Assembly: GCF_017921895.1 (NCBI RefSeq)
Contig: NZ_JAFIDN010000005.1
Location: 62,001-126,000, forward strand
From: Natronogracilivirga saccharolytica
GTDB taxonomy: Bacteria; Bacteroidota; Rhodothermia; Balneolales; Natronogracilivirgulaceae
Direction of reading: 5' to 3'
DNA length: 64,000 nt
Part shown: positions 24,358-58,773 of the stretch, one piece after another
How the letters are laid out: every line of letters starts with the position of its first letter
How positions within the stretch are numbered: position 1 is the first letter of the stretch
Notes under the pieces: generated by a model
What the model saw: the letters and a program-made list of their open reading frames with translations, nothing else
Database searches by the model: none
Told to the model about the DNA's origin: nothing
Position numbers and translations under genes: made by a program

Positions 24358-25119
24358 TCACAAATCCCTGTGGCTGAGGACCTCTCCGGACGGAAAATGC
24401 TCCGACAACATTTGGCGAACAAGGCGGCCGGCCACATCCTCCGAACTCCCGATCCTGCCCTCTTTCCAGGCATCGACGAAGTCCCGCACCATCGGAAAAT
24501 CTTCTTCGCTGGTATCCCTGATAATTTCCTGCATTCCGGTTTCGATCCGGCCCGGATTGAATGCCATCGCCTCGATGGGGTACCGAACCTTCTGTTGCTC
24601 CAGTCCCACCGTGCGGGTAAACATATCGACACCGGCTTTTGTACTGCAGTAGTGGCTCCATCCGTAATAGGGCTTCTGTGCTGCTCCCGATGATATCATC
24701 ACTACCCGCTTGACCATGCTGTACTCCTGAAACTGTCCGATAAAGGCGTGCGTCAGCAGCAGCGGCGATACAAAATTGAGTTCGAGGTTCTTTCGGTACG
24801 TTCTCAGGTCATACTTCCCGGCCGGCCCCATCGGATCAAGCATTCCCGCATTATTCACCAGGGCCAGAAGACCCGTTTTCTCCGGGGATATTCCCGATGC
24901 GATCTCCTGCATCAATTCGTCAAAGCCGTCCATATCGGTCAGGTCGCGGACGTAGGTGTGGACCATGGCGCCGCGTGACTCCAGTTCCAGCACCAGTTCG
25001 GACATATCGCTGCGGGCAATCAGATACAGCACAGTCTCTCTTTCCGCAAGTGCGAGGGCCAGGTCACGTCCGAACCCTTTTGAGGCACCAGTAATCACAA
25101 TATGTTTCTGCTTTTTCAT
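24358..25119 (-). CDS. Short-chain dehydrogenase/reductase (sepiapterin/benzil-reductase-like)
   Basis: 253 residues from the ATG at 25119. Classical SDR features: dinucleotide loop TGASKGFGRDLA (residues ~10-20), NNAG in LVNNAGML, catalytic Ser in VVMISSGAA, and Tyr/Lys in YCSTKAGVD. The NADP-dependent oxidoreductase family is clear, the substrate is not; overall layout resembles the sepiapterin reductase/YueD benzil reductase group. The start is fixed by the upstream repeat element, whose 3' end is the ATG itself, giving ATGAAAAAG. An earlier in-frame ATG at 25176 would place 19 extra residues inside that element and is rejected. Confidence 0.88.
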   Translation of the reverse strand: MKKQKHIVITGASKGFGRDLALALAERETVLYLIARSDMSELVLELESRGAMVHTYVRDLTDMDGFDELMQEIASGISPEKTGLLALVNNAGMLDPMGPAGKYDLRTYRKNLELNFVSPLLLTHAFIGQFQEYSMVKRVVMISSGAAQKPYYGWSHYCSTKAGVDMFTRTVGLEQQKVRYPIEAMAFNPGRIETGMQEIIRDTSEEDFPMVRDFVDAWKEGRIGSSEDVAGRLVRQMLSEHFPSGEVLSHRDL

Positions 25120-25215
25120 GTGTTTATAATTTATGATTCTGACGTCACATGTAGTACCCATGTTGGCTGCAATCATGCTTCTTTGTGACGATAAGTAGCC
25201 ATGGATATTTCATAG
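25120..25215 (-). repeat. Dispersed leader element, copy S (ends at the SDR start codon)
   Basis: Read on the minus strand it runs from CTATGAAATATCCATGG through AGAAGCATGATT, CATGGGTA and TGACGTCAGAATCATAAATT to ATAAACAC directly before ATG. It matches the element before the gamma-glutamyltransferase gene (50205-50318) almost base for base, but lacks about 17-20 bases in the middle. Related copies lie before the DPP-IV gene. It may be a promoter/leader cassette or a small dispersed repeat. Confidence 0.8.
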
Positions 25216-50204: not shown

Positions 50205-50318
50205 CTATGAATACCCATGGCGGCTTACCGTCACACAGAAGCATGATTATTGCCAGCATGGGTATTTCACTTCGTGACCTTCGGTTCATGAGACGTCAGA
50301 ATCATAAATTTTAAACAC
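50205..50318 (+). repeat. Dispersed leader element, copy G (ends at the gamma-glutamyltransferase start codon)
   Basis: It begins CTATGAATACCCATGG and runs through AGAAGCATGATT, CATGGGTATTTCACTTCG, TTCATGAGACGTCAGAATC and ATAAATTTTAAACAC, directly before ATG. It is the longest of four copies. It shares the middle block (TTTCACTTCGTGA, CTTCGGTTCATG) with the copy at 58569-58665 and the outer blocks with the copy at 25120-25215. Confidence 0.8.
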
Positions 50319-52142
50319 ATGAAGAAACTTATTACCGTTATTGCTCTTATCGCACTGATCAGTGCATGCAGGACTGCCGAACCGGTTATCGAACCTGAAA
50401 AGCCCCGGTTTTCTGAAGTTGATGCCCCCACTTTTTACCGCGAGGCTATGAGTTCAGACGGCATGGTTGTCACCGCACATCCTCTTGGAAGCAAAGCCGG
50501 CAGGGAAATGCTTGAAAAAGGCGGAAATGCCGTTGACGCAGCCGTCGCCGCGGCATTTGCCATCGCCGTGCTGGAACCCAATATGTCCGGACTCGGCGGC
50601 AGCGGTGCCATGACGTTCTGGAGCCACGAAAAGGGCCGGGCCGACTATCTGGATTTTTATGCCGCACTGGGAGAAGATCCCGATTATGCACTCGACATTG
50701 ATCCCGACTCACTTCGTACCCGCGAACGCGGCGTAGCCATCCCCGGCATGGTGGACGGTCTGCTTCAGGCGCTTGAAAAATACGGCAATCTGGAGCGCCA
50801 GGCGGTTTTGGCACCAGCCATAGAACTTGCAGAGGAAGGTTTTACCGTGCACCACCTGCTGGCACATATTTTCGAAAACTACTCCGACAGATTCACTCAT
50901 GACGAAGAAGCCAAAGCCGTGTTCTATCCTGACGGTGAGCCGCTGCGTGCCGGTGACCGGCTGGTCCAGCCGCAGCTGGCCGAAGTGCTGCGTAAAATTG
51001 CAACAGATGGCCGCGACGGTTTTTACAGCGGCGAGGTTGCCGAACGCACCATTGAAACCCTTTCCGAAGGAAACAGTGTGCTGACACTTGAAGACTTCGA
51101 AAATTACAGTGCGAATTGGCGCGGCGCACTTTGCGAGGAGTGGGACGGAAGGCGCATTCTGACATCTCCCCCGTCACTTGCCGGACACGAAGTCATACTG
51201 GCACTGAAACTGCTGGAGCGAAGCGGCATTCACCATATGGATCATCCGGTTGCTGATGGAGAGGCTCTCGGAGCCCTCGTGGATGCCATCCGCATTGCCA
51301 TGGCAGACCGCACAAAGTGGCACGGGGATCCTTCTTACGTAGACCTTCCTGTTGCGGGCATGATCAGCGATGAATATGCGTCACTGCGCGCCGGCGCTAT
51401 GGGCGGAGATGTTCCCGATACCATGCATGCCGGAAATCCCTGGACCGCAACGGAACGCTACACAGCCCCTTCAGCGTGTACCGGCGATGGCTATTTCCGG
51501 CTGCCGCTGAATATTGAAAAGCAGGATGAGGACTCGCTCAGGCAGCACATCCCCTCTGAGTACCTTGAGTATGCTGAGGAGGAGGACGACGACCAGCAGA
51601 CCACACATATATCTGTAGTCGACAGCAAAGGCAATGCGGTATCCATGACAAATACACTCGGATTGTATTTTGGGTCAGGTGTGTTTTCTGACGGCATTTT
51701 CTACAACTCGGCAGCGACCAATTTCGGAGGCAGCTACGGCAGCATCCGCGGACCCAACCGTACCGCTCACTCCAGCACCGCTCCAACCATCGTGCTCAGT
51801 GGCAACAAGGTCGAACTTGTCGCCGGTTCTCCGGGATCCGGACGTATTCCACCAGCCGTAGTCTCGATGATCGTCCACACACTGATGTATGATCTGCATC
51901 CGGCAGATGCCATCCGCATGCCGAGAGTATTTCCCGTTCCCAACAACCGTCGCGTCCGCCTCGAGCGCGGATTTTCAGCAGAAGCACTCAAAACCCTGAA
52001 TGAGCGCGGATATGTCATTGCACCGTCAAACTACCCCATGAACATGTACTTCGGCGGAGTCCAGATGATACGCGTCCTTGAGGATGGTACCATGATCGGC
52101 GTCTCCGACCCGCGGCGAGACGGCAGCCCGGCAGGACTCTGA
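50319..52142 (+). CDS. ggt: Gamma-glutamyltransferase, lipoprotein
   Basis: 607 residues. The signal ends in a lipobox (ALIALISAC, Cys17), so it should be anchored in the envelope. Ntn-hydrolase precursor: large-subunit signature GGNAVDAAVAAAFAIAVLEP and GLGGSG, and the autocleavage site before Thr428 in QQTTHISVVDSKGNAVSMTNTLG, which becomes the nucleophile of the small subunit; later AGSPGSGRIPP. The enzyme transfers or hydrolyses gamma-glutamyl groups of glutathione and peptides. The ATG is the last part of the dispersed leader element. A small gene follows 13 bases after the stop. Confidence 0.96.
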   Translation: MKKLITVIALIALISACRTAEPVIEPEKPRFSEVDAPTFYREAMSSDGMVVTAHPLGSKAGREMLEKGGNAVDAAVAAAFAIAVLEPNMSGLGGSGAMTFWSHEKGRADYLDFYAALGEDPDYALDIDPDSLRTRERGVAIPGMVDGLLQALEKYGNLERQAVLAPAIELAEEGFTVHHLLAHIFENYSDRFTHDEEAKAVFYPDGEPLRAGDRLVQPQLAEVLRKIATDGRDGFYSGEVAERTIETLSEGNSVLTLEDFENYSANWRGALCEEWDGRRILTSPPSLAGHEVILALKLLERSGIHHMDHPVADGEALGALVDAIRIAMADRTKWHGDPSYVDLPVAGMISDEYASLRAGAMGGDVPDTMHAGNPWTATERYTAPSACTGDGYFRLPLNIEKQDEDSLRQHIPSEYLEYAEEEDDDQQTTHISVVDSKGNAVSMTNTLGLYFGSGVFSDGIFYNSAATNFGGSYGSIRGPNRTAHSSTAPTIVLSGNKVELVAGSPGSGRIPPAVVSMIVHTLMYDLHPADAIRMPRVFPVPNNRRVRLERGFSAEALKTLNERGYVIAPSNYPMNMYFGGVQMIRVLEDGTMIGVSDPRRDGSPAGL

Positions 52143-56034: not shown

Positions 56035-58467
56035 TCATTTGCCCAGCGGAAATTCCCGTGGCGGCTCGGCCTGCATCAGATGCCTCACAAAGTAATCCCA
56101 CGTGCGGCGCACATGATAGGCCTCGTTGGCATATCCGTGATTCCTGTTGGGCATGACAATCAGGTCAAAGTCCTTATTCTCCCTGATAAGCTCATCCACG
56201 AGAAGCAGGGTCGTATTGGGATGGACATTGTCGTCCATCGTGCCGTAGGTCAGAAGAAGGTGGTCCTCCAGTTCTCCAGCCTTTTTCCAGATGGCCTGAT
56301 CCTCGAAGGTATCCCGGTCATTTTCCCTGACCCGCGGACCCTGGTATTTCTCCCCCCAGTAGTAGGTATAGCCCCGGTTATCCATGTTGCCCGCACTGGC
56401 CACACCCGCAGTAAAGACACCGGGAAACCGGAGCAGTGCACTCATCGTGGCATATCCGCCGCCGGAGTGACCGTACATGCCCAGCCGTTCGGCATCGAAC
56501 CAGGTGTGACGTTCGGCAAGCTGCTGCACAGCAGCGATCTGGTCTTCAATGCCGTTGTCGGCCATGTCTCCGTACCAGGCAGTGTGAAATGACTTCGAGC
56601 GCAGCGGAGTACCCAGCGCATCAAGCTGAATTACGATGAATCCGAGTTCAGCCAGTGCATGTGTCTGCCCGCGCCGGGCCGGTGAAAAACTGCGGGTTCC
56701 AACACTTCCGATTTGCGGACCGGGATAGATGTTGATCACAACCGGATAGCTTTCATCGGGATCGAAATCCGAGGGTTTGTACTTTAAACCGTATAAATCA
56801 GTCTCCCCGTCGCGTGCTTTGACCTGAAACGGCTCAGGCATCCGCCAGTCGGACTCCTCCAGCGGCCCGATATCAGCCTCTTCCACAGTCATGATCTCCG
56901 AGCCGGCCTTGTCACGCAGCACCGTAACCGACGGTTCGGTGAACGAGGAGTACTCATCCACATAAAACCGTCCTGACGGCGACGCTGAAATCACGTGATT
57001 GGCATCTTCGGGACTCAGCAGTTCCGGAGCCGGGACTATGGCCTGTTCGGGCTGATCCCCGGGATCAGACAGGCCGGAAAAATGGATGCTGTAGAGATGT
57101 TTCAGATAAGGGTCGCGGTCATCTTCAAGTCCGGCACCCGTAAAATGGACGGTAGCGTCGGACTCATCTACATGCAGCACATCCACCACATTCCAGTCAC
57201 CGGTGGTCATCTGCCCGATCTCCCCGCCGGTTTCCAGATCGTATAAATAAAGATGTCCCCATTCATCCCGCCTTGAGTACCAGATAAACTGATCACGCTC
57301 AAAAAGAACCCGCCAGTTAGGCTTGCCCCGCGAGGTCAGATTGGATTCGAAAAATGTCCCGGCCTGCTCGCCGAATACATGGCGCACATCACCCGACTCT
57401 GTGTCGGCGATGTACAGATCCACCTCGCGGTAATCGCGCGATGTGTTCACAAACGCCATTTTCGAGGCATCCTCACTCCACATAATATCGGCCCACTGAC
57501 CGTCGCGCTCCAGCCCGCAGCAATTTGAGGTGCGCTGGTGCGAAGGATCGGTATCCAGCCACACTTTGTTCTGCTCAGCCACATCGAGGACCACACGTTC
57601 GTGCATCGGAACGATGGAGTCACCCGGCAGGGCATACGGCCAGGAATCCGGAACCGGCCGGTCCTCGGCCATCTCCAGCAAATGCATTTCAGAAACCTCC
57701 CGCTCATCGAGACGATAGGTAGCTATCTTGCGGGAATCCGGCGACCAGTGCAGCACTGGTCGGTCGGACCGGAACCACCCCTGTGAGTTCGTCCCGAATC
57801 CATACCGGTACTCCCCCCCTTCAGTCAGTTCGTGCTCCTCCCCGCTGGCCATATCACGCACCCAAATATTATAATCGCGAATAAACGCCGCCCACTTCCC
57901 GTCCGGCGAAAGCACGCTGTCATCCGGACGCACCGGCAGTTCGGATTCGCGGCACTCATACTCCTCAAGTTCGCACTCCCAGCGCTTGCTGTCCGACTCA
58001 AAATCGATCACCGTTCTGTTCTCGCGGAAATCAAATGTGCGGAACGGCAGGTCTCCGGGCGAAACGCTTCGGTCCATTACCGAGGACAGCGAGTCGGCCA
58101 GACGCTCGTGATCAAACGCATCCCTGCGCTCCTCACCTTCGGCATCCACCAGATAAAAGCGGTAGCCGTCATCGGTTCGCGTCCGGTACCAAAAATAATC
58201 ATCTTCAATCCATTCGGGACGGATATTGCTGCGCAGCACCTTGGACTGAAGTTCACTGTTCAGAAGCGCCGCGGCACGCCGGTAATCCTCATCGCTGAGT
58301 GACAGCACCTCGCCACCGGCTGCATCAGTATGACCTGCAGCTGATCTGTCGCCGTCGGCCACTTCCCCAGCACCTGTGCATGAAGTAAACAGCAGCATCG
58401 CAGCAATCAAAACGGCACCCGGCTGCCAAAAAACGCCGGTTGCATTCCCATTTATTACAGATTTCAT
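56035..58467 (-). CDS. Dipeptidyl peptidase IV-type S9B peptidase, lipoprotein
   Basis: 810 residues. A lipobox (AAMLLFTSC, Cys30) predicts envelope anchoring. The DPP-IV-like N-terminal propeller (~60-550) contains RDYNIWVRDM and WFRSDRPVLHWSPDSRKIATYRLDE-type blades; the hydrolase has VVINIYPGPQ, nucleophile in GHSGGGYAT (Ser668), Asp in TYGTMDDNVHP (~745) and His in NRNHGYA (~777). It would remove N-terminal dipeptides, typically after proline or alanine. The start codon is the end of leader element D1, and a second copy D2 lies directly upstream. Confidence 0.93.
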   Translation of the reverse strand: MKSVINGNATGVFWQPGAVLIAAMLLFTSCTGAGEVADGDRSAAGHTDAAGGEVLSLSDEDYRRAAALLNSELQSKVLRSNIRPEWIEDDYFWYRTRTDDGYRFYLVDAEGEERRDAFDHERLADSLSSVMDRSVSPGDLPFRTFDFRENRTVIDFESDSKRWECELEEYECRESELPVRPDDSVLSPDGKWAAFIRDYNIWVRDMASGEEHELTEGGEYRYGFGTNSQGWFRSDRPVLHWSPDSRKIATYRLDEREVSEMHLLEMAEDRPVPDSWPYALPGDSIVPMHERVVLDVAEQNKVWLDTDPSHQRTSNCCGLERDGQWADIMWSEDASKMAFVNTSRDYREVDLYIADTESGDVRHVFGEQAGTFFESNLTSRGKPNWRVLFERDQFIWYSRRDEWGHLYLYDLETGGEIGQMTTGDWNVVDVLHVDESDATVHFTGAGLEDDRDPYLKHLYSIHFSGLSDPGDQPEQAIVPAPELLSPEDANHVISASPSGRFYVDEYSSFTEPSVTVLRDKAGSEIMTVEEADIGPLEESDWRMPEPFQVKARDGETDLYGLKYKPSDFDPDESYPVVINIYPGPQIGSVGTRSFSPARRGQTHALAELGFIVIQLDALGTPLRSKSFHTAWYGDMADNGIEDQIAAVQQLAERHTWFDAERLGMYGHSGGGYATMSALLRFPGVFTAGVASAGNMDNRGYTYYWGEKYQGPRVRENDRDTFEDQAIWKKAGELEDHLLLTYGTMDDNVHPNTTLLLVDELIRENKDFDLIVMPNRNHGYANEAYHVRRTWDYFVRHLMQAEPPREFPLGK

Positions 58468-58545
58468 GTGTTTAAAATTTTAGATTCATATGGTCAGATG
58501 CAATTCCATGACCGTGTTTAATCATGATCCTGTGTGCCCGGGCAC
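58468..58545 (-). repeat. Dispersed leader element, copy D1 (before the DPP-IV start codon)
   Basis: On the minus strand it ends AAAATTTTAAACAC just before ATGAAA, with GATCATGATTAAACACGG and CCATATGAATC further up. It shares the 3' core with the S, G and D2 copies but lacks the block CACTTCGTGAACTTCGGTTC. Confidence 0.7.
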
Positions 58546-58568
58546 CGGCCCGGTCATGATCATTTCAT

Positions 58569-58665
58569 GTGTTTAAATATTTGAATTTATATCGTCACAT
58601 GAACCGAAGTTCACGAAGTGAAATACCATGACAGGTTTAATCATACGCCTGTTTACCTGAGCTTA
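58569..58665 (-). repeat. Dispersed leader element, copy D2 (orphan, tandem to D1)
   Basis: On the minus strand it carries GTATGATTAAACCTG, CATGGTATTTCACTTCG, TTCGGTTCATGTGACG and AAATATTTAAACAC, followed by ATG AAA TGA: the start codon opens only a two-codon frame. Its middle block matches the G copy closely. D1 and D2 therefore form a tandem duplication of about 101 bases of the DPP-IV 5' region. The stretch to 58773 has no gene. Confidence 0.75.
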
Positions 58666-58773
58666 TGTTCTCTCCTTGTTCATTCATTTTTTTTGGTTAA
58701 GAACTGAGGGAAGATCACAAAAGCGAACCGAACCGGCGCCACTCCACAGGTTTACCTTTGCGAATAATTCTTT

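Follow-up and report, generated by a model that had tools for sequence, protein, structure and literature searches.

Start-codon leader units of Natronogracilivirga saccharolytica as probable miniature derivatives of an IS110-family lineage

Four units at three gene starts

The window analyzed here is a 64,000-nucleotide stretch of the Natronogracilivirga saccharolytica genome (NCBI RefSeq assembly GCF_017921895.1, contig NZ_JAFIDN010000005.1, positions 62,001 to 126,000), in which genes for a short-chain dehydrogenase (SDR), a gamma-glutamyltransferase (GGT) and a DPP-IV/prolyl oligopeptidase are each directly preceded by a copy of the same short, dispersed unit (Table 1). An unfiltered profile search together with direct reading places exactly four copies in the window (E 1.7e-22 to 8.7e-13), with the fifth-best match at E 0.5, and the segment TTTAAACACATGAA occurs four times at two or fewer mismatches, where 0.37 occurrences are expected. 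An initial annotation of this DNA had described copies ending exactly in the start codons of three unrelated genes, plus a fourth copy. All four are present with edges close to those it gave, each gene-adjacent copy closes with the ATGAA of the next gene, and Pfam identifies the three genes. The fourth copy, however, is not a separate site, as copies three and four are head-to-tail neighbors in which unit 4 ends in ATGAA and unit 3 starts directly after it.

Table 1. Units in the window and the genes that they precede, with the extent of each profile match
Feature	Position	Strand	Profile match	Description
Unit 1	25115..25208	-	25115-25207 (-)	94 bp, type A; final 5 nt (25119-25115) are the ATGAA start of the SDR gene; left-flank ATGAA at 25213-25209
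Unit 2	50212..50323	+	50212-50323 (+)	112 bp, type A with 20-nt double-minihairpin insert; final 5 nt (50319-50323) are the ATGAA of the GGT gene; left-flank ATGAA at 50207-50211
Unit 3	58463..58563	-	58463-58562 (-)	101 bp, type B; final 5 nt (58467-58463) are the ATGAA of the DPP-IV/S9 peptidase gene
Unit 4	58564..58682	-	58564-58663 (-)	119 bp, left end degenerate; head-to-tail upstream of unit 3; left-flank ATGAA at 58687-58683
Short-chain dehydrogenase gene	24358..25119	-		Pfam PF00106; opens at the terminal ATGAA of unit 1
Gamma-glutamyltransferase gene	50319..52142	+		Pfam PF01019; opens at the terminal ATGAA of unit 2
DPP-IV / prolyl oligopeptidase gene	56035..58467	-		Pfam PF00930, PF00326; opens at the terminal ATGAA of unit 3

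Copy number, placement and mobility

The units extend well beyond the window. Across the 3.75-Mb genome there are 45 occurrences of the 12-mer TAAACACATGAA and none of its reversed control. A covariance model built from 24 copies recovers at least 104 units at E<0.01, a minimum, since scoring was confined to 150 candidates. These form 74 arrays, single or tandem, of which 22 are tandem with up to four units head-to-tail. Units are present in 17 of 20 genomes of the family, with tens per genome in most, while across the wider phylum they are recognizable in 16 of 395 sampled Bacteroidota genomes (12 of 171 sampled genera), and many of these units again end at gene starts, for example at lpxB. 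The searches of the genome and of its relatives, both of which the initial annotation had proposed, find far more than four copies, and a preference for start codons along with them.

A typical unit is preceded by ATGAA and ends in AAACASATGAA, and this terminal ATG usually serves as the start codon of the gene that follows. The ATGAA before the array is exact in 39 of the 74 arrays and is one-base shifted or degenerate in the remainder. With gene starts judged from open reading frame (ORF) length and no gene caller, an ORF of 60 amino acids or more begins at 45 of the 57 intact array ends, compared with 64 of 226 ATGAA sites in the window (28%; p 4e-12). Unit ends are also enriched at ORF starts relative to intergenic ATGAA (odds ratio 11, p 2e-8), in an approximate comparison where genes were set by ORF and start criteria differ slightly between the two arms. 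Downstream genes, named from their protein starts as sucC, rpmJ, purQ, mnmG, flgB, flgK, sugar nucleotidyltransferases and many others, are functionally unrelated across arrays, and the targets in relatives include rpmH and ispF. This breadth leaves the regulon for peptide and redox genes, one option raised by the initial annotation, unsupported, and the units are not a regulon signal.

Identical units of 94-120 bp are found at unlinked genes, which establishes spread but not the enzyme responsible. At sucC, only this genome has a unit at the start codon; the 16 relatives with a readable start have none at or near that codon, and in one genome (G011) a unit is located further upstream. At GGT, a different unit occupies the same start in another genome (G008), and other readable orthologues have none at the start, in comparisons where the upstream sequences of relatives are too diverged to read a base-exact empty site. 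The units are mobile on an evolutionary scale, with the presence or absence of insertions differing between relatives.

Ends in common with an IS110-family element

Two further sites in the genome (L020 and L040) have a common 209-bp end without a unit, which led to an element of the IS110 family of insertion sequences (IS). One full copy (L117) is present in the genome, at a start codon and directly behind a unit, and reads ATGAA, then ATATTCATGCCGG...GACACACAGGGGTATGATTATAAA, a 416-amino acid transposase, a right end of ∼200 bp closing in ...ATAATTATAAACACATGAA, and the gene. The transposase (P0001) matches Pfam PF01548 (3.4e-27) and PF02371 (3e-24), as well as the NCBIfam model NF033542 for IS110 RNA-guided transposases (279 bits against a cutoff of 140), so that L117 has a DEDD transposase with a C-terminal Transposase_20 domain, as expected of the IS110 family. 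The C-terminal region of P0001 also has a weak match, below cutoff, to a TIGR-Tas endonuclease model (E 3.6e-5).

The first ∼50 nt and last ∼28 nt of the unit match the two ends of this insertion sequence. The left end of L117 corresponds to positions 2-47 of the unit model, and in a profile search of its relatives the left ends match the unit at ∼2-50 and several right ends match at ∼72-99, with complete units adjoining many of these elements. Relatives of L117 are found at 70-82% identity across Bacteroidota, and those with readable ends lie mostly before ATGAAA... starts; in Salegentibacter, one IS is present in three copies at three different sites. The units themselves are non-coding, as the ORFs opened by an ATGAA before another unit span 2-22 amino acids, and with ends common to an autonomous element they have the makeup of a miniature inverted-repeat transposable element (MITE). 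Neither a unit-like core nor a unit-like left end was found in four other IS110 elements (L118, L119, L121 and L122). One of the two sites named above, L020 (G000:C4:∼286990), is a solo 209-bp IS right end with a bridge-type RNA region and no transposase, at the start codon of a PIG-L-like gene, and represents a second kind of derivative.

Downstream of the transposase gene, a region of ∼130 nt (RE RNA) is strongly conserved and is predicted to fold into two domains. This region contains two sense motifs, NNATGAA-A[CT] (motif 1) and NNATGAA-AA (motif 2). Among related elements that are not fully independent, motif 1 and the left flank carry an identical base ahead of ATGAA in 17 of 19 elements, and motif 2 and the element right end do so in 22 of 22, rare variants included; each agreement was reached in 0 of 100,000 shuffles, while the crossed comparisons (9/22 and 7/19) were at chance and not significant. 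The two bases following motif 1 are shared with the element left end in 19 of 19 cases, and right flanks mostly start with A, as does the sequence following motif 2. For L117, motif 2 agrees with the right end, and motif 1 does not match the present left flank. Judged from sequence, a putative noncoding guide region with motifs for both the target flank and the element end appears across the related IS, and this matching is the pattern that would be expected of bridge or seek RNAs (PMC11187229, PMC11208160). A search of plasmids with the IS right-end RNA region gave no match.

RNA fold and anatomy of the unit

The unit is composed of the left ∼50 nt and the right ∼28 nt of the IS together with a short antisense segment, and has a conserved three-helix RNA fold. 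P1 is formed by the left end with an internal segment, P2 follows, and P3 joins the internal CYATSTG to the terminal CASATG, so that the start codon is paired. With a hand-set structure on the broader alignment, covariation amounts to 44 double-change cells compared with 17.6 in shuffled alignments and at most 18 for slid structures, which is the covariation among copies that the initial annotation had suggested looking for. P1 is the weakest helix (64% of cells paired) and P3 is the firmest (97%), with covariation at one P3 pair (C-G 10, G-C 8, A-U 1). The hand-set structure superseded an RNAalifold consensus of MAFFT-aligned units, which was misaligned between two subfamilies and displayed little covariation. 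Rfam returned no credible match for the window, the units or the IS, at gathering or relaxed thresholds.

The antisense segment, GNNCATTCYATSTGACC, is complementary to the unit's own joined right and left ends. It covaries with the unit's own right end (69/84, against a shuffle mean of 41 and maximum of 55) and modestly with the left end (7.95, against a null maximum of 7.65). The antisense arm tends to oppose the left flank (17/84 compared with 34 expected), and tandem neighbors therefore mostly alternate between CAC and CAG ends: in this genome and its relatives, CAG-type guide units follow CAC ends in 19 of 24 cases, and the reverse holds in 16 of 23. This alternation suggests that the target motif and the donor motif are kept distinct. 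A variable target guide was not found in the unit core, where the base immediately 5′ of ATGATTA shows no dependence on the left flank (31/84 compared with 31.4 expected).

Between their two antisense parts, some units contain a 20-nt insert, CACTTCGTGACCTTCGGTT, made up of a pair of small hairpins whose loops are GAA/TTC. It is present in the window unit at 50212-50323 and in L006, L019, L026, L029, L031 and L032, and it also occurs alone and inverted beside other units (L043, L087 and L011). In Algoriphagus-type units, a different hairpin occupies this position (L305).

Origin of the units

We consider it likely that the units are non-autonomous, MITE-like derivatives of a Bacteroidota IS110-family lineage that has ATGAA at gene start codons as its insertion site. 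This origin draws on the copy number, the start-codon placement, the ends in common with IS110, the guide and flank matching in the IS RNA region, the covariation of the fold, and the presence and absence of insertions between relatives. The initial annotation had also proposed a mobile or copied leader cassette, which was right in essence, as the unit is a dispersed, mobile sequence whose end falls exactly on the start codons of unrelated genes; it overlooked the match to the two ends of an IS110-family element, and of its interpretation the cassette stands and the regulon does not.

In the proposed mechanism, the autonomous element would provide a DEDD transposase and a downstream bridge- or seek-type RNA, and the transposase with the RE RNA would recombine the ATGAA of the joined element ends with an ATGAA at a start codon. 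Recombination would leave ATGAA on both sides, so that the start codon is restored at the right end of the element and the gene, with its ATGAA and an A/T-rich leader regained, would survive. Because insertion would rebuild the ATG, even core genes may tolerate it (sucC, rpmJ and mnmG, and rpmH in a relative). New copies would insert at the ATGAA of older copies to create tandem arrays. The units are most likely mobilized in trans by an IS110 transposase that RNA would guide, with the unit supplying the ends and perhaps its own guide. The best reading is that the units are guided to start codons, directly or by descent; their retention there may reflect targeting and low fitness cost, and the preference could arise from targeting, retention or both.

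Several points weigh against this origin. Transposition is unobserved, and the genomes compared include no pair of near-identical strains that differ by an insertion. PF01548 is found in only 3 of the 20 family genomes, one of which has no units, and a relative of P0001 in only 2 of 16 unit-bearing genomes, though several of the others are near-complete. Missing partners in many unit-bearing genomes, for which loss, assembly gaps or other IS110s are the only explanations, are the main weakness. The guide motifs were first spotted by eye, and the permutation test then used those same elements. The left flanks of the units share only ATGAA, which is weak for a guided target.

Three alternatives need to be weighed against an IS110-derived MITE. 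One possibility, which we hold to be a good deal less probable, is that the units are self-sufficient mobile guide RNAs, that is, compact seekRNA genes with GNNCATTCYATSTGACC as their own donor guide that borrow only a transposase. The antisense covariation is consistent with this, as are the absence of the antisense segment from full IS left ends, the persistence of units where no partner IS is seen, and a unit length (94-120 nt) near the 70-100 nt of known seekRNAs (PMC11187229), although the ordinary helices P1 and P3 explain the same covariation and a variable target guide is missing from the core. The units would then be, and this is put forward equally tentatively, free-living genes of ∼100 nt that encode only a seekRNA-like RNA and their own ends, steer a foreign IS110 transposase to those ends and to start codons, and are transcribed in the host mRNA leader with little harm.

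It is unlikely that the unit is instead a cis-regulatory leader RNA, kept as useful, that controls downstream translation through P3. The pairing of the ATG in P3 and its covariation at one pair, the sense orientation before ATG, and the preference for start codons over other intergenic ATGAA would all fit such a role, but the targets are functionally unrelated, the insertions examined are not conserved between relatives, and tandem arrays, IS ends and the lack of an Rfam match fit it poorly. A riboregulator role may exist as a side effect, given the conserved fold and the 3′ helix that pairs the start codon. Like IS605 elements, the units have hairpins close to their ends and a left target that recurs at the right end, yet an origin by IS200/IS605-type single-strand transposition (Y1 TnpA) with ATGAA as target is highly improbable and was rejected. 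Units and Y1 transposases anticorrelate: Y1_Tnp is found in 6 of the 20 family genomes, including the three without units (G005, G006 and G009), and is lacking from G007, which is 98% complete and has 37 units; the sole Y1 element in the genome has unrelated ends, and the IS110 end match explains the unit better. This Y1 (IS200-type) transposase (L041, G000:C14:6911-7273) lies directly beside a sigma-54 regulator-like reading frame, which it possibly interrupts.

Implications and comparison with known systems

The units suggest that an RNA-guided transposase family may use the start codon as a safe harbor. They add high-copy miniature derivatives to the IS110 family, provide a natural data set of guide and target covariation for the bridge-RNA field, and would change annotation, since in these bacteria many 5′ leaders would have to be read as mobile DNA and not as native control regions. 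In the literature searched, which covered few subscription journals, we found neither natural miniature IS110 derivatives nor start-codon targeting described.

The elements described here share with IS110 and IS1111 elements that use seekRNA or bridge RNA the DEDD transposase (PF01548 and PF02371), motifs for the target side and the element end, and precise insertion in one orientation (PMC11187229, PMC11208160). A mini-IS reduced to its ends can be mobilized by transposase and RNA supplied in trans (PMC11187229). The target here is different, being the ATGAA of gene start codons, and so are the high-copy natural miniature derivatives. As in IS1111, the RNA region lies downstream of the transposase, but no inverted match of 6 bp or more was found between the end regions of the one element compared (L131), while the IS1111 group has subterminal inverted repeats of 7-17 bp. 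With riboswitch-like structured 5′ leader RNAs, the units share a conserved fold directly upstream of the start codon that pairs the start codon, and they differ in their lack of a common downstream function or Rfam match, variable presence among relatives, tandem copies and IS ends.

Bacterial and archaeal MITEs, such as MITECca01 from ISCca4 (an IS982 element) in Cardinium (PMC9769881) and SMN1 and SM3A in Sulfolobus (PMC3718332), are likewise short, non-coding and high-copy, with ends common to an autonomous IS. The MITE of a Bacteroidota endosymbiont was considered as a related element and is unrelated, being derived from IS982. The units are set apart from these MITEs by the absence of terminal inverted repeats, an RNA-guided parent family, their placement at start codons and a conserved RNA fold.
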